Position numbers and translations under genes: made by a program. Positions 2,575-18,677 of a DNA stretch of 18,677 nt are shown in pieces. How positions within the stretch are numbered: the first letter of the stretch is position 1; every line of letters begins with the position of its first letter. Under the pieces are notes generated by a model, which saw nothing but the letters and a program-made list of their open reading frames with translations, was not told the DNA's origin and did not search any database. The DNA is from Pseudomonadota bacterium (lineage in GTDB: Bacteria > Pseudomonadota > Gammaproteobacteria > Xanthomonadales > Xanthomonadaceae), in the NCBI GenBank assembly GCA_023388355.1, contig JAEWGI010000056.1, positions 1-18,677 on the forward strand. The letters are read 5' to 3'.

Positions 2575-3243
2575 ATGACCGACCGCTTGCCGACGACCGA
2601 CAAGAAAGACGAAGACGAAGGTCTGGACTGGGCGCGAATCGCAGGATTCACCCTCGTAGTGGCCATCCACGCCGCGGCGCTGCTGCTGCTGCTGGCGCCG
2701 GCCACGCCTCCCCAGGCCGAGCAGCAGGCCGAAGATGCCACCCGCGTGGTCATCATCGAGCCGCCGCCGCCGCCGCCCCCGCCGCCGCCGCCGCCGCCGC
2801 AGCCGCCCAAGCCCCAGCCGATCAAGGAGCTGGTGCCGCCGACGCCGACCCCGCTGCCGCCGCCGCCGGAAGATCCGCCGGTGGTGTTCGACGAGCCGTC
2901 CCCGATCGACACCCCCGCGCCGCCGCCCGCGCCGCCCGCGCCGCCCGCGCCGACGCCGGACATCGGCGCCAGCGTCGACATCTCGTCCAAGAACATGAAC
3001 CCGCCGCAGTACCCGCCGGCCGCCGCGCGCGCCGGCATCGAGGGCACCGTGGTCCTGGTCATCGATGTCGACGCCAACGGCAACGTCACCGACGTGTCGG
3101 TCGAGAAGTCCAGCCGCAACCGCGACCTGGATCGTGCGGCGATGCAGGCCGCCCGTCGCTGGCGTTTCAATCCCTCGGTCATCAATGGCCAGAAGGCCGC
3201 CGGTCGCGTGCGCGTCCCGGTCACCTTCCAGCTCGGCGGCTGA
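2575..3243 (+). CDS. tonB: Energy transducer TonB
   Basis: TonB (222 residues) spans the periplasm and transmits proton-motive force from ExbB/ExbD to outer-membrane receptors. The protein has a cytoplasmic N-terminus rich in charge (1-19) and a single membrane anchor (about 21-42). A proline-rich spacer follows, containing 13 consecutive prolines at 63-75 and PPAP-type repeats at 114-127. The C-terminal TonB domain covers about 130-222 and includes the conserved YPP at 146-148 and the terminal strand RVRVPVTFQL. The ATG at 2575 has a GAG-containing ribosome binding site about 10 nt upstream. It is the first gene of an operon with exbB (82 nt downstream), exbD1 and exbD2. In Xanthomonas campestris the same gene order is known, and all four genes are reported as needed for the plant hypersensitive response. 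The proline run is encoded almost only by CCG codons. Confidence 0.96.
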   Translation: MTDRLPTTDKKDEDEGLDWARIAGFTLVVAIHAAALLLLLAPATPPQAEQQAEDATRVVIIEPPPPPPPPPPPPPQPPKPQPIKELVPPTPTPLPPPPEDPPVVFDEPSPIDTPAPPPAPPAPPAPTPDIGASVDISSKNMNPPQYPPAAARAGIEGTVVLVIDVDANGNVTDVSVEKSSRNRDLDRAAMQAARRWRFNPSVINGQKAAGRVRVPVTFQLGG

Positions 3244-3325
3244 CCGCCGCCGCGCCACAAGCGTTTTTTCCAACCGCTACACCGTTCCACTTCCTACACT
3301 CAACAACATCTAGAAGGTAAGCGTC

Positions 3326-4066
3326 ATGCTGCAGGAAACCACCGCCCCCGTTGCCGGAGCCGGCAACGCCCAGGCACTGACCCAGATGGGCTTCGCGAAC
3401 CTGATTGAACACATGACAGTGGTCAACTGGATCGTGTTCCTGACCCTGATCCTGATGTCGGTCCTTTCGATCTACTGGATCATCTACAACTTCATCAAGA
3501 ACATCCGTCTGAAGAAGAGCTCGGACCGGGTGATCGCCACGTTCTGGGAAACCCCCAACGCGCAGGACGCGATCCGCTTCATGGAAGAGCAGCCGCGCAG
3601 CGAGCCGTTCTCCAAGGTCGCCCTCGACGCCGCCCAGGCCGCCGCGCACCACCAGCGCCATGACGGTTCGCGCCTGGCCGAGTCGCTCAGCCGCTCCGAG
3701 TTCGTCGATCGCGCGCTGCGCCAGGCGGTGACCCGCGAGTCGCTGGGCCTGGAAGCCGGCCTGACCGTGCTCGCCACCGTCGGTGCGACCGCGCCGTTCG
3801 TCGGCCTGCTCGGCACGGTGTGGGGCATCTACAACGCGCTGATCCGCATCGGTGCCACCGGCCAGGCCGACATCGGCGCGGTTGCCGGTCCGGTGGGCGA
3901 GGCGCTGATCATGACCGCGATCGGTCTGGCCGTGGCGATCCCGGCGGTGCTGGGCTACAACTTCTTCGTGCGCCTGAACCGCAGCACGAACAACAAGCTC
4001 GACACCTTCGCCCACGACCTGCACGACTTCTTCGCCACCGGTTCGCGCGTCGGCGACGTGCGCTGA
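3326..4066 (+). CDS. exbB: Biopolymer transport protein ExbB (MotA/TolQ/ExbB proton channel)
   Basis: ExbB (246 residues) forms the inner-membrane pentamer that houses the ExbD dimer and couples proton flow to TonB. Three membrane segments are visible at about 33-55, 145-170 and 190-215, with the large cytoplasmic domain between the first and second. The conserved family region LATVGATAPFVGLLGTVWG is at 149-167 and the GEALIMTAIGLAVAIPA segment at 191-207. The ATG at 3326 is preceded by AAGGT about 9 nt upstream. The operon position between tonB and two exbD genes separates it from TolQ, which would be with tolR, tolA and tolB. Confidence 0.95.
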   Translation: MLQETTAPVAGAGNAQALTQMGFANLIEHMTVVNWIVFLTLILMSVLSIYWIIYNFIKNIRLKKSSDRVIATFWETPNAQDAIRFMEEQPRSEPFSKVALDAAQAAAHHQRHDGSRLAESLSRSEFVDRALRQAVTRESLGLEAGLTVLATVGATAPFVGLLGTVWGIYNALIRIGATGQADIGAVAGPVGEALIMTAIGLAVAIPAVLGYNFFVRLNRSTNNKLDTFAHDLHDFFATGSRVGDVR

Positions 4067-4092
4067 TCGAACAATACTGACGGAGATCGGAC

Positions 4093-4518
<426 letters not shown>

Positions 4519-4534
4519 TCGGGAGTAACGCACG

Positions 4535-4951
<417 letters not shown>

Positions 4952-11894: not shown

Positions 11895-14054
11895 TCAGCG
11901 TGCGCCTGCCTCCCAGTCCCAGCGCAGTCCGAGCAGCAGGCCACGGCCCGGCGCCGGCTCGTAGTAGCGCCCGTTGCCTTCGTTCACGATCACCGAACCC
12001 ACGTGCGCGTGGTCGAACAGGTTGTCGATCCTGGCGAAGGCGCGCAGCCCGCCGTGCGTCGTCGTCCAGCGCCGCGCCGCCTCGACGTTCGCCACCACGT
12101 AGCCGGGCGCATGCGCGCTGCCGGCGTCGTTGACGCCGATCGGGCTGACCGCGAACGCCTCGACCGCCAGCCGCCACGGTCCCGGCTGCCACTGCAGCCG
12201 CGCCGAACCCTGGCGCCGTGCCGTGCCGGGGACCGCCGTGCCCGCGGACACCAGCACGGAAGGATCGGTGCAGCCGGGGCCGGTGCAGATCGGAAAGCCG
12301 TCGCGGAAATGCGCGTCGAGCCAGGTCGCGGCCAGCGCCAGCGACCAGTCCGCCGCCAGCGGCAGCCGCGCCGAGAACTCCGCGCCTTCGCGCCGCGCGC
12401 GGCCGGCGTTGCGATAGCTGCTGCGGCCGCCGACGTTGCGCGCCACCGCCAGCTCGTCGTCGGTATCGGCGCGGAACAGCGCCGCCTGCAGCTCCATGCC
12501 GCCGGCATTGCGCCAGCGCGCGCCGAGTTCGAGGTTGGTGCTGGTGGCCGGCGCGAGGTCGAACGCCAGCCCGGCGCCGCCGTCGGCGCGGTAGCCCAGC
12601 TCGTTGAAGGTCGGGGTCTCGAAGCCGCGGCCGACCGAGGCGTAGACGCGCCACTGCGCGTCCGGCGCGAAGGTCAGGCCCAGCACCGGCGTGGTCTGCG
12701 AGTAGTCGACCCGGCCGCTGTCGTCGGGATTGGTGGCGGTGACGTAGCCGTCGCTGGAGCGGAAGCGCAGCTGGCTGTGGCGTACCCCGGCCAGCAGCGA
12801 CCAGCGGTCGGCGAACGCCCACCACGCCTGCGCGTAGCGGTCGAGGCTGTCGACCCGGCTGCGCTCGTCGCGGCGCAGGCTGCCGCGTATGCCCAGGGTG
12901 TCGCCGACGAAATTCTCGTAGCCGCGACGATGCTGGCGCTGGCGGTCGGCGTTGGCGCCGGCGGTCACTTCGAACCCGCGCCCTGCAAGCGCGCCGACCC
13001 AGCGCCAGCGCAGGTCGACGCCGCCGTAATCGTTGTCCAGGTCGATCACGCCGCCGGAGCTGAGCGGGTTGGCCTGCGCGCCCACCGGCACCGACAGGAA
13101 CTGTTCGATCGCGCGCTGCCCGCCATAGGCCATCGCCTCGAGCGCATGGCCGCTGCCCAACGGCTGCTCCCAGCGCAGGCCCAGCTGGTCCTGGCGCGCG
13201 GACTTGCGGGTGTCGTACAGGGTGGCCACCGACGTCGCCTGGCGCGGATCGGCCCGCACCTGTTCGGCGGTGAGGCCGAGTGGATCCTGCGCGTCGGGCG
13301 CGTCGAAATGATTGGCCACCAGCTGCACCCGGCCGCCGCCGGGCAGGTCGGCGTGGAGCTTGGCGTTGAGCCAGCTGCGGCGCGCGCGGCTGTGGTCGCG
13401 CCAGCCGTCGGTTTCGAAGCGGCTGGCGGCCAGCGCCACGCCAAGCACGTCGCCGGCGCCGCGCAGGCTGGCCGAGAGCACGTGGCTGTCGTCCCGGCCG
13501 GCGCTGGCCTGCACGTGGCCGTGGGCGGGCGCGCGGCCGTCGGCGCTCCAGATCTGGACCACGCCGCCCGACGAATTGCCGTGCAGGGCCGAGAACGGCC
13601 CGCGCATCACCTCGATGCGTTCGGCCGCGGCCAGCACGAAGTGCGAGACCTGGCCCTGCCCGTCGGGCATGGTGGCCGGTATGCCGTCGGCGTACAGGCG
13701 CAGCCCGCGCACGCCGAAGGTCGCGCGCGCGCCGAAGCCGCGGATCGACAGCTGGGTGTCCTGGGCGAAATTCTGCCGCTCGCGCGCGGCAAGGCCGGGA
13801 ACGCCGGCCAGCGCTTCGGAAATGCCGATGCCCGGCCGTGCCCCGGTGCCGTCGAGTTCGATCGTGGCAAGCGAGGCCGGCACGTCGAACGCCGACACCC
13901 CGTGCAGGCGCGCGGAGGTGACCTGGACGCGGTCGAGCGTGACCGGATCGGGCGCCTCCCGGGCCAGTACGGTGACCGGCAGCAGCATCGCAAGCGCAGC
14001 CGCAAGCGGCCGGAAACGACGACGCACGCGCCGCGCAAACAGCATCTCAGGCAT
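11895..14054 (-). CDS. yncD: TonB-dependent outer-membrane receptor, YncD/PqqU family
   Basis: The 719-residue receptor matches E. coli YncD along its length, not only in the plug. The shared plug motifs are FAQDTQLSIRGFGARAT, GIPATMPDGQGQ and RGPFSALHGNSSGGV (about 97-164), and barrel motifs include GRGFETPTFNELGYRADGG, FRADTDDELAVARNVGGR and DNLFDHAHVGSVIVNEGNGRYYEP. A signal peptide covers 1-31 (cleavage after VLA), and the TonB box is near 40-46 (LDRVQVT). Two cysteines near 590 and 595 match a two-Cys loop in YncD. E. coli YncD has been described as a pyrroloquinoline quinone uptake receptor (PqqU); that function is inherited by family resemblance and needs a test here. The ATG at 14054 has GGGG 9 nt upstream; an in-frame TTG lies three codons earlier. 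The C-terminus ends WDWEAGAR, without the usual final aromatic residue. Expression would need TonB energy from the operon at 2575-4951. Confidence 0.92.
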   Translation of the reverse strand: MPEMLFARRVRRRFRPLAAALAMLLPVTVLAREAPDPVTLDRVQVTSARLHGVSAFDVPASLATIELDGTGARPGIGISEALAGVPGLAARERQNFAQDTQLSIRGFGARATFGVRGLRLYADGIPATMPDGQGQVSHFVLAAAERIEVMRGPFSALHGNSSGGVVQIWSADGRAPAHGHVQASAGRDDSHVLSASLRGAGDVLGVALAASRFETDGWRDHSRARRSWLNAKLHADLPGGGRVQLVANHFDAPDAQDPLGLTAEQVRADPRQATSVATLYDTRKSARQDQLGLRWEQPLGSGHALEAMAYGGQRAIEQFLSVPVGAQANPLSSGGVIDLDNDYGGVDLRWRWVGALAGRGFEVTAGANADRQRQHRRGYENFVGDTLGIRGSLRRDERSRVDSLDRYAQAWWAFADRWSLLAGVRHSQLRFRSSDGYVTATNPDDSGRVDYSQTTPVLGLTFAPDAQWRVYASVGRGFETPTFNELGYRADGGAGLAFDLAPATSTNLELGARWRNAGGMELQAALFRADTDDELAVARNVGGRSSYRNAGRARREGAEFSARLPLAADWSLALAATWLDAHFRDGFPICTGPGCTDPSVLVSAGTAVPGTARRQGSARLQWQPGPWRLAVEAFAVSPIGVNDAGSAHAPGYVVANVEAARRWTTTHGGLRAFARIDNLFDHAHVGSVIVNEGNGRYYEPAPGRGLLLGLRWDWEAGAR

Positions 14055-14202
14055 CAAGGGCAACCCCGGTTGGTGTGCACCGCACCGCAGTCTAGGAGCG
14101 GCGGCTGAACCTCGCGTGCGCGGGGGCGGGGGCGAGGGCGAGGTCGACCCGTGCCTGCCCCCGTGCCCGGCGACCCGCAGGTGGCGCGATGCGCGACGGC
14201 GC

Positions 14203-15399: not shown

Positions 15400-15820
15400 G
15401 GCAGCAGTCGTCGCAGGAGGAGGGGAGGACGCGCCTTGGCGCGGCGAAAAAGCGCATGGATTCTAGCAGCCATCCCCGCAGCGGCCGCGTTCGTTGCGCG
15501 CGGAACCGTTCCATCCCGCGGCTGCGGCTTCGGCTCCTTCCTCCGCCTGCAGGACATTGCGCCCGTCACGGGTGGAAGCCTTGATGGAAGCGGGTGAAGC
15601 GCGTGGGCTGGTCGTTGGCAGTTGCTGGTGGGTTGGCGCGCTGCGCGCGGAAAGATCCCGCCACCGCTGGCCCCCACCCCAGCCCTCCCCCGCAAGCGGG
15701 GGAGGGAGCCAAGCCGCAAGCGGGGGAGGGGGCCAAGCCGCAAGCGGGCGAGGGAGCCAAACCGCAAGCGGGGGAGGGAGCCAAGCCGCAAGCGGAGGCG
15801 GGAGCCAGACGCGCGAAGAC
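15400..15820. other. Noncoding spacer with tandem repeats between phhA and tyrB
   Basis: This 421-nt spacer contains no credible gene. Positions 15683-15809 hold a palindrome and a five-unit 24-bp tandem array. Positions 15520-15560 carry another degenerate palindrome (CCCGCGGCTGCGGCTTCGGC type). A 72-codon frame on the minus strand through the array (15566-15784) only encodes a repeated octapeptide created by the 24-bp period and is not considered a gene. Confidence 0.7.
15683..15809. repeat. Palindrome (15683-15706) overlapping a five-unit 24-bp tandem repeat array (15690-15809)
   Basis: A perfect 24-nt palindrome (11-nt arms CCCTCCCCCGC and GCGGGGGAGGG around AA) starts the block. Five units of exactly 24 bp then follow, beginning at 15690, 15714, 15738, 15762 and 15786. 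Each unit starts CCGCAAGCGG and ends in GAGCCAAG or a near variant; unit 3 has one changed base in its G-run, unit 4 differs from the preceding unit at the junction base, and unit 5 has diverged. The core is the same as the dispersed palindromes at 5187-5275. Because the period is a multiple of three, all frames stay open across it. Confidence 0.88.
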
Positions 15821-16711
15821 TCAGACGTCGTCGTCGCCCGGCCAGCCTTCGCCGCTGCCGCGCTGGAACACGCGGTCGTCGTCGAGTACGGCGCCGGCGG
15901 GAATCGGGTCCTGTCCGGCCAGGTGCGCGTAGATCGGCGCGAAGTCGGGGCGGGTGGCCTCGATCAGCTGCTCGAAGCTGTCGATCACGAAGTACGTCTT
16001 CTGGTAGCTGTCGATCCGGTAGCGGGTGCGCATGATCCGCGCAAGGTCGAAGCCGATGCGGTTGGGCGCGGCGCTTTCGAGCGCGTGCACCGATTCGCCG
16101 CCGGACGAGACGATGCCGCTGCCGTAGATGCGCAGCCCGCCGGCCTCTCGGATCAGGCCGAACTCGACCGTGTACCAGTACAGCCGGGTGAGGTTCTGCA
16201 GCGCTTCGGCGCCGATGCCGTGCGCCTTCACCCCGCCGCGGCCGTAGGCCTGCATGTAGTCGGCGAACAGCGGGTTCATCAGCAGCGGCACGTGGCCGAA
16301 CAGGTCGTGGAACAGGTCCGGCTCTTCGATGTAGTCGATCTGCCCGGGCTTGCGGATCCACCAGGTGACGGGGAAGCGCCGGTTGGCCAGGTGCTCGAAG
16401 AAATCCAGCTCGGGCAGCAGCCCCTCGACCCCGATCAGCTGCCAGCCGGTGGCCCGGCCAAGCACCGCGTTGAGGTCGCGGTAGCGCGGGATCGCCTGCG
16501 GGCTCATGCCCATCGCGTCCTGTGCCTGCAGGAACTGCGCGCTGGCGCGACCGGCCAGCACCCCGCGCTGGCGCGCGTACAGCGTGGCCCAGGTGGCGTG
16601 GTCGGTGGCGTCGTAATCGTCCCAGGGCTGTTCGACGATGCCGGTCGCGTAGACCGGAACCTTGCCCTTGTCGGTGTGCAGGTTCTCGACGCGGCGGGGG
16701 GGAGTGGACAT
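15821..16711 (-). CDS. phhA: Phenylalanine 4-monooxygenase
   Basis: The 296-residue enzyme converts phenylalanine to tyrosine using tetrahydropterin, O2 and Fe(II). The iron ligands are His135 and His140 in EPDLFHDLFGHVPLL and Glu184 in WYTVEFGL. The region GVEGLLPELDFFEHLANRRFPVTWWIRKP that precedes them is typical of bacterial phenylalanine hydroxylases, which have a catalytic domain only. The start at 16711 has GGAG 6 nt upstream; an alternative in-frame ATG at 16732 would add seven residues and has a weaker ribosome binding site. No pterin carbinolamine dehydratase gene (phhB) is seen nearby, though it is often adjacent in Pseudomonas. The gene is transcribed away from an Lrp/AsnC-type gene, 138 nt apart, and faces tyrB downstream. 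Confidence 0.94.
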   Translation of the reverse strand: MSTPPRRVENLHTDKGKVPVYATGIVEQPWDDYDATDHATWATLYARQRGVLAGRASAQFLQAQDAMGMSPQAIPRYRDLNAVLGRATGWQLIGVEGLLPELDFFEHLANRRFPVTWWIRKPGQIDYIEEPDLFHDLFGHVPLLMNPLFADYMQAYGRGGVKAHGIGAEALQNLTRLYWYTVEFGLIREAGGLRIYGSGIVSSGGESVHALESAAPNRIGFDLARIMRTRYRIDSYQKTYFVIDSFEQLIEATRPDFAPIYAHLAGQDPIPAGAVLDDDRVFQRGSGEGWPGDDDV

Positions 16712-16849
16712 GGCGGTCTCCGGCGCGGGCATTGGGGGAGGGCAACGGTCAGGATATCCACTATCCGGCGCAACAGGTTTGCGATCATTGCGCGATAACC
16801 GCGTTGGAGCGCACTATTCGTGCGTAGAAGCGACCTGAAGCGCACGCTT
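16712..16849. promoter_or_regulatory. Divergent regulatory region between phhA and the Lrp-type gene
   Basis: The 138-nt intergenic region is more AT-rich than its surroundings around 16750-16820. It contains TTGCG-based motifs on the plus strand (TTTGCGATCA and ATTGCGCGAT) and the related GTTGCGCCGGAT on the minus strand. These repeated elements could be binding sites for the divergent Lrp-type regulator. No promoter with good -35 and -10 boxes was identified confidently for either gene. Confidence 0.35.
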
Positions 16850-17344
16850 ATGACCCAATCGACCCTCGACCGCACCGACCTGCAGCTGCTGGCCGAACTG
16901 CAGCGCGCCGGCCGCCAGACCAATGCCGAACTGGCCGAACGCGTACACCTGTCGCCCTCGGCCTGCCTGCGCCGGGTGCAGCGGCTGGAGCGCGAGGGCG
17001 TGATTGCCTGCTATCGGGCCGAACTCGACGGCGGCCGCCTGGGCCTCGCCCTGCAGGCCTTCGTGCGCGTGCACCTGGCCAGCCACGACGCTGCCTCGGT
17101 GGCCGCGTTCGCCGCGCATGTCGACGAGTGCCCGGAAGTCGTGGCCTGCCATGCGCTCACCGGCGACATGGACTACCTGCTGCACATCGCCGTGACCGAC
17201 CTGGAGCACTTCTCGCGCTTCCTGCTCGATCGCCTGCTGGCCCAGGCCGGCGTGGCCGACGTGAACTCGAGCTTCGTGCTGCGCACGGTCAAGGCGTTTC
17301 GCGGGCTGCCGCTGCCGGCGCCCGGGGGAGATCGAGCGGACTGA
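16850..17344 (+). CDS. Lrp/AsnC-family transcriptional regulator
   Basis: The 164-residue product has a winged helix-turn-helix (about 24-50, [23 protein letters not shown]) followed by the RAM ligand-binding/oligomerisation domain (about 66-150) with the TGDMDYLL motif at 104-111. Lrp-type regulators are octamers that bind DNA in response to an amino acid. The gene is divergent from phhA, so it probably controls aromatic amino acid breakdown and may bind phenylalanine or tyrosine; this is inferred from position. The ATG at 16850 gives the usual family start ([14 protein letters not shown]); the in-frame upstream GTG at 16820 adds ten residues and is less likely. Its last 56 nt overlap the integrase gene on the opposite strand, tail to tail. 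Confidence 0.92.
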
Positions 17345-18299
17345 GCACGCCGCGGCCGCCGCGGTTGAGCACGTGCGTATAGATCTGGGTGGTGGCCACA
17401 TCCTTGTGCCCGAGCAGCTCCTGGATCGTGCGGATGTCGTAGCCGGCCTCGAGCAGGTGGGTGGCGAACGAATGGCGCAGCGTGTGCGCCGACACCGGCT
17501 TGTCGATCCCCGCGCGCAGGCGTGCGCGCCGGATCGCGCGCGACAGCGTGGCATCGTCCAGGTGATGGCGCCGGGTGCTGCCGTCGTGCGGATCGATCGA
17601 CAGCCGCAGTGCCGGGAACACGTACTGCCACGCGAACTCGTGCGCCGCCGACCGGTACTTGCGCGCCAACGCGTGCGGCAGCCAGGCCTCGCCGAACCCG
17701 GCCTGCAGATCGCCGTTGTGCAGGACGCGCGCCCGCTCCACCTCCTCCTGCAGCGGCGCCACCAGCGACGCTGGCAGCAGCGTGCGCCGGTCGCGCCCGC
17801 CCTTGCCGTTGCGCACCAGGATCTCGTTGCGCGCGAAGTCGACGTCCTTGACCCGCAGCCGCAGCCCTTCCATCAGCCGCATCCCGGTGCCGTACAGCAG
17901 GCGCGCCACCAGCGCCGAGCGTCCGTCCATGCAGGCCAGCAGCGAGGCCACCTGGGACTGCGACAGCACGACCGGCAGCCGCGCCGGCCGCTTGGCGCGC
18001 ACCACGTCTTCCATCCACGGCAGCTTGACCTCCAGCACCTGCCGGTACAGGAACAGCAGCGCCGACAGCGCCTGGTTCTGGGTACTGGCCGACACCTTGC
18101 CGTCCACGGCGAGGGTGGTGAGGAAGTGCTCGACCTCGCGCCCGCCCATCGCGCGCGGGTGGCGCCGGCCGTTCGCCAGGATGAACCGGCGGATCCACCC
18201 GAGGTAGGCCCGCTCCGTGCGCAAACTGTAATGATGAACCCGCAACTTGCGACGAACCTCGTCGAAAAGCCGCGGAGCACGCGCTTCCTTCGCGTCCAT
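17289..18299 (-). CDS. intI: Integron integrase (tyrosine recombinase, IntI type), apparently intact
   Basis: The 336-residue recombinase has all tyrosine-recombinase catalytic residues: Arg141 ([13 protein letters not shown]), Lys166 (NGKGGRD), His272 and Arg275 ([12 protein letters not shown]), His298 (LLGHKDV) and nucleophile Tyr307 (TTQIYTHV). Each lies exactly five positions below the IntI1 equivalents (146, 171, 277, 280, 303, 312). The integrase-specific extra domain between patches II and III is present at about 194-250 ([43 protein letters not shown]), which separates IntI from XerC/D and phage integrases. The end [12 protein letters not shown] is also typical. Such enzymes capture and shuffle gene cassettes at an attI site. 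Its promoter would face the attI region to the right; no clear -35/-10 pair or LexA box was found. The ATG at 18299 lacks a strong ribosome binding site. There is no frameshift or stop, unlike many Xanthomonas integrases. Confidence 0.95.
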
Positions 18300-18416
18300 G
18301 TTTATCAGACGGTTCCGTGTCCATAAAAAATATCACCGCGTTTTCGGCAGGCGACTTGCTGCAGGATGAGGCTGGAGGCGCGCGGGGAAAGCCGGGCAAC
18401 TACCTGTTCCAGGGTA

Positions 18417-18505
18417 GGAATATCCCGAATTGACCGGGCGAAGCCGAGGCTGAATACTCGCGGATATCCCCCGGAAGTGGGGACTACTAGGCGTTAGCGC
18501 TCAAC
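18417..18505 (+). other. Candidate attI recombination region
   Basis: Between the integrase start and the first cassette frame lies a 206-nt region. ATATCCC occurs twice as a direct repeat (18420-18426 and 18464-18470), 44 bp apart, each within a longer similar context (GGAATATCCCGAA and CGGATATCCCCCG). attI sites commonly carry integrase-binding direct repeats, so these may be such sites. The core-like GTTAGCG is at 18493-18499, with predicted crossover after G18493. It departs from the GTTRRRY consensus at the last two positions, so the exact core needs confirmation. The position, just upstream of a low-GC open frame, is what an attI next to cassette one should look like. Confidence 0.6.
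18430..18458 (+). promoter_or_regulatory. Candidate cassette promoter Pc
   Basis: TTGACC (18430-18435, one base off TTGACA) and AATACT (18453-18458) are separated by exactly 17 bp and point into the cassette array. Transcription should begin near 18465, about 40 nt before the first cassette start codon. This is the best promoter match in the right end of the window. Integron Pc promoters usually lie in intI or attI, directed toward the cassettes. Confidence 0.7.
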
Positions 18506-18677
18506 ATGCATCATCGTAGATTCAATGCGTTTGTCCTTATAGCCACAATGGTTCTACTCACTGGCTGCGTGGGGACGAGGCCAGCTAGATCGGACTTTGC
18601 ATTTGCATCGGTAGAGGCGAGTGACGGCCTGCTAGACGGATCGTGGAAGGGCCGCCTCACCATTAGGAGGCCTTACG
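18506..18677 (+). CDS. First gene-cassette product: lipoprotein of unknown function, partial (cut by window end)
   Basis: The frame starting at ATG 18506 stays open for 57 codons to the window edge. It begins MHHRRFNAFVLIATMVLLTG followed by Cys21, a clear lipoprotein signal peptide with lipobox LTGC, then a segment containing SDFAFASVEASDGLLDGSWKG. Counted by hand, these 172 nt are about 55% GC, and the first 55 nt only 40%, against roughly 70% or more in the flanking chromosome. Codons such as CTA, ATA, AGA and TTT, rare elsewhere in the window, occur here. It starts 12 nt after the predicted crossover and has no good ribosome binding site, as in many cassettes. It is too short to name a family. 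An in-frame ATG at 18548 is possible but would lose the charged signal start. Confidence 0.7.
   Translation, partial: MHHRRFNAFVLIATMVLLTGCVGTRPARSDFAFASVEASDGLLDGSWKGRLTIRRPY

Follow-up and report, generated by a model that had tools for sequence, protein, structure and literature searches.

Head of a sedentary chromosomal integron in a Lysobacteraceae bacterium near Luteimonas and a candidate stem-loop in its attI site

A Lysobacteraceae bacterium near Luteimonas very probably carries an intact sedentary chromosomal integron whose head forms the end (17289-18677) of the window, the whole stretch of DNA that was analysed (18,677 nucleotides); the probability of this reading is about 0.96. 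The integrase gene intI, a divergent cassette promoter Pc, the attI site and a genuine first cassette were all present. The evidence comprised an IntI frame free of interruptions, a Pc and an attI placed as in the family, the cassette boundary, the occurrence of the same cassette elsewhere with its attC, and the arrays that near relatives have at this locus. The integron head itself is ordinary and of a kind already known, and the part worth following is a putative stem-loop in attI, which, as judged from sequence, is kept by compensating changes across the family.

Recombination of a bottom-strand attC with attI is established integron knowledge. In the window, IntI would join the folded bottom strand of the attC of an incoming cassette to attI at G^TTAGCG (18493/18494), each newly captured cassette would land right behind Pc, and Pc would transcribe the array in the direction away from intI; the most recently inserted cassette would be the gene for a 170-aa predicted lipoprotein. 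The enzyme is presumably active and Pc probably in use, and a cassette array would follow in the window's own strain. The features of the integron head and its locus are listed from left to right.

15821..16732, minus strand: phenylalanine 4-monooxygenase gene phhA, locus marker (TIGR01267, 332 bits; synteny)
16820..17344, plus strand: gene for an Lrp/AsnC-type regulator, marker of the insertion locus (same neighbour in L001, L095 and L096)
17289..18299, minus strand: intI, integron integrase, 336 aa, intact (TIGR02249, alignment with IntI1 and IntI3, 2a3v match)
18430..18458, plus strand: Pc, predicted cassette promoter TTGACC-17-AATACT (best match and family conservation; sequence only)
18467..18483, plus strand: candidate attI stem-loop TCCCC-CGGAAGT-GGGGA (arm complementarity across the family)
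18481..18487, plus strand: probable L-box position of attI, GGACTAC, family consensus GGTCTAC (placed by register with CCCTAAA of attI1)
18493..18499, plus strand: R box GTTAGCG with the crossover at 18493/18494 (homology with L093 begins at the core)
18494..18677, plus strand: first gene cassette, truncated by the window end, attC outside (cassette recurs in L085/L093, where it has its own attC)
18506..18677, plus strand: 5' part of the cassette-1 gene for a predicted lipoprotein, full product of 170 aa = P0122 (57/57 residues identical)

Integrase and chromosomal locus

In the profile search, the integrase reached 473.5 bits with the integron integrase model TIGR02249, exceeding the cut-off of 265 by 208 bits; an earlier sequence-only reading of this DNA had proposed a search with an intI-specific model as a check. 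With NF011946, a narrower equivalog that likewise bears the name integron integrase, the score of 350 bits stayed below the cut-off of 435. The full RKHRHY set described in that reading was recovered in the alignment with IntI1 and IntI3, and R141, K166, H272, R275, H298 and Y307 are the aligned residues that we take to be catalytic. The alignment against IntI1 was gapless from residue 23 to the C-terminal tail, so the offset was constant (5), as had also been claimed, and the integron-specific extra domain was borne out by a stretch around residues 207-228 that is kept in the alignment. No internal stop or frameshift was present in intI, in agreement with the apparently intact head of the earlier description.

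The best solved-structure match of IntI was PDB 2a3v (entry name IntI4; E 1.8e-94), which we take to be the Vibrio cholerae integrase. Among the named near relatives, the Pseudoxanthomonas koreensis IntI was 90% identical over 96% of the query and the Luteimonas kalidii IntI 85% identical. A match to the window IntI at E <= 1e-60 was found in 192 of the 297 genomes of the family sample, and TIGR02249 was matched in 73/398 genomes of the phylum sample versus 0/14 control genomes. In the protein database this IntI occurred on 4 contigs, the longest of 18705 bases, so the window is probably nearly the whole contig, breaking inside the first cassette. A plasmid search with window positions 18290-18677 gave no match, and Rfam at gathering thresholds gave nothing in the window.

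The lrp-type gene and intI are convergent, with the 3' end of intI overlapped by 56 bp. Genes lrp, phhA and tyrB and a TonB-receptor gene stood beside the integron in the window and in loci L001, L095 and L096, a locus common to L. kalidii, G037 and G168; among loci L001-L102, many of which end early, these neighbours occurred only in L001, L095 and L096 and in the repeats L081, L087, L088 and L098. The shared lrp-phhA-tyrB-TonB locus indicates that in that group the platform is chromosomal and sits here. Elsewhere in the window, a tonB-exbB-exbD-exbD gene set was located at 2575-4951 (Pfam TonB_C, MotA_ExbB and ExbD twice), a TonB-dependent receptor at 11895-14063 resembled PqqU (654 bits, under the cut-off of 1200), and a tandem repeat of a 24-base unit (4.9 copies, 15690-15807) lay between phhA and tyrB.

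Cassette promoter, first cassette and arrays in relatives

The divergent arrangement of intI and the cassette side, called canonical in the sequence-only reading, was reproduced in the relatives, which have Pc and attI where the window has them; Pc and attI recurred upstream of intI in the same order and at nearly constant distance. The 17-bp-spaced promoter directed toward the cassettes corresponded to Pc, with 9/12 consensus matches and 1 site found versus 0.2 per shuffle. Of the 102 attI compared, 84 had the TTGRC 62-66 nt upstream of the crossover, a conserved position that disfavours a chance origin. Downstream of Pc the sequence runs GATATCCCCCGGAAGTGGGGACTACTAGGCG^TTAGCG, with the core G^TTAG at 18493-18497 in an attI that adjoins intI. 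Compared with GTTRRRY, the first five positions of the R box GTTAGCG fit and the last two deviate, the same box being present in the cassette of the L093 relative. Between intI and Pc, a TGATAAGACATA-like element was observed in L002, L004, L009, L012 and L013, which is perhaps an integrase promoter or operator; the window has only a degenerate form of it at 18320-18340.

The low-GC open frame that had been noticed after a core-like site is the first cassette, with a G+C content of 54.3% versus 70.7% for the window, and its boundary was fixed by the match to L093. From the core G^TTAGCG onward the window and L093 agreed, the match running GGCGTTAGCG, and ahead of the core they were unlike, with attI in the window and the attC of another cassette in L093. 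This places the crossover at 18493/18494 and shows the cassette directly behind attI in the window and directly behind another cassette in L093. The window was said to stop about 170 nt into the first cassette, which holds for the cassette frame (172 nt from the start at 18506) and not for the distance from the crossover, which is 184 nt; it ends ahead of any attC, and the array was seen in relatives only.

The 57-residue start of the cassette gene had two matches among the 297 family genomes, with 82% and 32% identity. In the genome of the 82% match (L085/L093), the gene sits between two attC sites, and the cassette's own attC begins with CGCTAAC, the complement of GTTAGCG (the core G plus the first cassette bases). 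The full cassette product, P0122, was found on a 966-base contig, and with the L093 protein as query, P0121 and P0122 were the only ones at E <= 0.001 among 417 candidates. In Pfam, neither the 170-aa L093 relative nor the 57 residues from the window had a match. An LTGC lipobox was seen by eye at the start of the protein, a predicted lipoprotein; its structure prediction (mean pLDDT 45.5 with 3 sequences) was too poor for a structure search.

Arrays were sought in 11 stretches in all by a scan for paired R''/R' boxes with complementary arms. The three of the nearest relatives that share the lrp-phhA-tyrB locus had 8-17 attC-like sites beyond attI (8 in G037, 9 in G168 and 17 within 8971 bp in L. 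kalidii). Other loci carried 7 (L003), 14 (L011), 5 (L012), 6 (L021) and 3 (L009) such sites, L093 and L094 1 each, and L097 (G104, 3384 bp) 0; shuffles gave 0 or 1 site. The near-palindromic nature of the sites made counts about as high on the reverse strand, and since the scan needs a matching R'' and R', sites in which these differ are missed, the attC of cassette 1 included.

With these results, two other accounts of the region were weighed. A XerC/D or phage-type integrase standing beside an unrelated promoter has in its favour the common tyrosine-recombinase fold and weaker matches to XerA/C/D models, but the XerC and XerD models stayed under their cut-offs (138 of 335 and 142 of 330 bits) where TIGR02249 was passed, the integron-specific insert is in place, and attI and a bounded cassette adjoin intI, so that this account is hardly credible; a grouping of the recombinase with XerC/D, named earlier as a refuting result, was not found by model scores, and the other such result, a lack of attC-like sites to the right, was not found in the three same-locus relatives. 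An In0-like or decaying platform, with intI, Pc and attI present and at most one cassette, is improbable. The short visible part of the cassette would suit it, and the available text of a Xanthomonas study distinguishes a group of intI that lack cassettes and refers to previous work that predicted most integrase genes to be inactive (PMC12444791). Against it stand the uninterrupted intI, the correctly bounded cassette 1 and the sites in the same-locus relatives, together with a contig that ends inside cassette 1, as assemblies, we infer, tend to do in repeat-rich arrays.

Arm pairing in attI across the family and beyond

The stem-loop of the window ends 10 nt before the crossover. Arms of the type CCCC...GGGG occurred in most attI aligned, and elsewhere CCTC/GAGG, CCGC/GCGG, GCGTC/GACGC, ATCCC/GGGAT, GCCCT/AGGGC and more were found. 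The first set comprised 152 de-duplicated upstream regions, of which 89 had an attI match at E < 0.01 and 63 without one were left uncounted; L014 and L010, in which the crossover was missing, and one duplicate were dropped, giving 86 distinct attI. In 83 of the 86, and not in the other 3, four Watson-Crick base pairs formed a stem whose end lay 9-12 nt ahead of the crossover. A 5-bp stem was formed in 58/86, or in 83/86 with G-T allowed, compared with 0-6 when the 5-bp stem was sought at ten other distance ranges. Swapping the right arms between attI lowered the number of 5-bp stems from 58 to a mean of 31.4 (maximum 42 in 500), and among attI without GGGG on the right side, 19 of 22 paired with themselves versus 3.5 after swapping (maximum 10 in 2000).

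A hold-out of 40 regions was located by a model with the stem masked, with matches accepted up to E 10; no attI match was obtained in 12, and 28 remained. The 4-bp stem was found in 22/28 versus 12.7 by swapping (maximum 19 in 2000) and was absent in 6 (L219, L224, L225, L232, L245 and L258), the 5-bp stem in 17/28 versus 7.5 (maximum 14). In the non-GGGG part, 7/11 paired versus 2.6 by swapping, a number that swapping also reached at its maximum (7), so that this part does not by itself stand out from the swaps.

Position by position, 91 attI were compared (the 86 plus five from other lineages picked for having a stem), in a register picked to favour pairing, so that, other than in the swap tests, which are without that bias, the figures lean upward: Watson-Crick pairs were formed in 50/91 at 10 nt from the crossover, plus 16 G-T, in 78/91, 90/91, 87/91 and 89/90 at 11, 12, 13 and 14 nt, and in only 7/91 at 9 nt. 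Loops ranged from 3 to 9 nt. The non-Watson-Crick pairs of the stem were G-T in 28 cases and A-C in 5, or 13 and 4 without the outermost pair (113 attI, 3 not fitted), counts to which no clean probability attaches, the attI being related. On a rough tree of the flanks, which is weak, whole-pair versus left-side changes numbered 45/37, 28/27, 12/12, 15/13 and 6/5 at 10 to 14 nt; pair changes thus hardly exceeded left-side changes, as expected if both sides change together. L005 and L007, with IntI cores 79% identical and the arms ACCCC and GCGTC, were the closest pair with such differing arms. A gapless alignment with column statistics was rejected in favour of the alignment-free arm-swap tests; registers were mixed because the distance from the -10 to the stem shifts, and the highest-scoring pair of columns was not one of the stem pairs. 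When folded as a single sequence, the window hairpin did no better than shuffles (z -0.39 and -0.55).

Outside the family, 7/59 upstream regions without a clear attI match had a 5-bp stem before a GTTR-type core (stem end 8-12 nt away), versus 1.9 in plain shuffles. In the phylum sample (398 genomes), 9 of 30 loci, four of whose regions were under 300 nt, had such a 5-bp stem at 9-12 nt versus 0-3 at six other distance ranges; three of the nine (L196-L198) belong to genomes already in the first family sample, L197 being a repeat of L. kalidii. The class 1 attI1 (L183) carried AGGGC-AGTC-GCCCT, ending 9 nt before the crossover, and Aquabacterium L188 CGGAC/GTCCG at 11 nt, and by eye no stem was seen at that place in attI3 (L184) and Thiodictyon (L187). 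Two further observations were made by eye. In the integron of a cyanobacterial plasmid from Kovacikia minuta (L185, 250-600, reverse strand), the likely attI was preceded by a direct repeat, GGGATCTTAGGCTGAA, together with an imperfect AGGC...GCCT stem, and a TTATACACC motif, exact in L047 and approximate in L052 (Stutzerimonas/Pseudomonas), was repeated in both orientations between the start of intI and the L box.

Possible roles of the stem-loop and known systems

A real hairpin of the mRNA-sense strand, as a leader of the cassette transcript or as a DNA hairpin in recombination, is the narrowly favoured reading of the paired arms. In its fullest form, this reading gives attI a hairpin about 10 nt from the crossover, one that is conserved by compensation over the Lysobacteraceae and recurs in some distant integrons, attI1 among them; it would be a leader stem-loop for every captured gene, protective or regulatory, or folded DNA in recombination. 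A functional hairpin in attI, RNA or DNA, and this fuller form of it are tentative, with not quite an even chance. 5'-terminal stem-loops are known to slow mRNA decay. In the 84 attI of the window's family that were measured, 8-15 nt separated the end of the -10, placed by best match, from the stem, which should put the mRNA start right beside the stem; with Pc as placed, the cassette mRNA would begin just before the stem-loop. The excess of G-T over A-C agrees with an mRNA-sense strand that folds, whether that strand is RNA or single-stranded DNA. A role at the RNA end everywhere is opposed by the P. stutzeri-type attI, where the distance from stem to crossover is kept too and Pc is reported, in the available text of PMC8876359, inside the integrase gene. 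A riboswitch-like ligand role was not adopted, nothing pointing to it.

The arms could also be two inverted integrase binding sites that form no hairpin and track the changing specificity of IntI, a serious possibility that stays clearly short of an even chance. It accords with the available text of PMC8946536, where recognition of attI is described as sequence-based and on double-stranded DNA, and co-evolution of attI and its integrase is proposed. Further direct or inverted arm copies were seen by eye in the P. stutzeri-type L047 and in L064, copies of the arms elsewhere in the intI-attI region were in mild excess (40/58 versus 30.7 +/- 3.0 for swapped arms), and the non-CCCC arms were copied elsewhere in 15/21 versus 10.2 +/- 2.1. 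Such sites are harder to reconcile with a pairing that ends sharply at the L box, at 9 nt, with an L-box core that is not mirrored on the left, and with loops of varying length; the surplus of G-T also looks as if the mRNA-sense strand folds, for which transcription-linked C-to-T change is an alternative cause.

Among known systems, the L. kalidii integron (L001/L098), also sedentary and chromosomal, shares with the window the layout of attI and Pc, the lrp-phhA-tyrB-TonB locus and an attC-like array, but has about 1.2 kb between intI and lrp, which overlap in the window, and a different first cassette. The class 1 IntI1/attI1 (L183) resembles the window in its IntI (52% identical), R-box crossover, divergent layout and the stem in attI1, and differs in its attI sequence and in being plasmid-borne with a resistance cassette. 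In class 1 integrons, Pc lies inside intI1. The chromosomal integrons of Xanthomonas, in the same bacterial order, likewise have intI, attI, Pc and cassettes, but according to the available text are mostly located downstream of ilvD with many intI inactive (PMC12444791), whereas the window has an intact intI frame beside lrp/phhA.

For attI1, the literature, in the parts available, describes an L box CCCTAAA, an R box and two direct repeats; the L box is a named attI element in the available text of PMC12901181, and the V. cholerae attI is reported without direct repeats in that of PMC8946536. An aminoglycoside riboswitch was proposed in attI1 (PMC7588185) and argued against in PMC9410878, as far as the available texts of both go. 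That proposal shares with the stem-loop described here a structured reading of the attI leader; it concerns one highly conserved class 1 sequence, whereas the present evidence is compensating change in many attI and involves no claim of a ligand. No report of a covarying hairpin in attI was found in the available parts of the literature on attI structure, subscription papers lying mostly outside this scope, so that its absence is unproven.

Integrons of this bacterial order are proposed, in the available text of PMC8352920, as sources of the cassettes now spread by mobile resistance integrons, which makes intact platforms and unnamed cassettes worth recording; the window contributes a cassette for a predicted lipoprotein that had no match in Pfam. 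If the stem-loop is functional, it would be a part of the platform that is missing from the available parts of the attI descriptions found, and two questions would become open to testing: how a single fixed leader can work for all captured genes, and what makes up attI in addition to the L and R boxes. If the hairpin reading is true, the cassette transcript would start with the same stem-loop whatever gene is captured.
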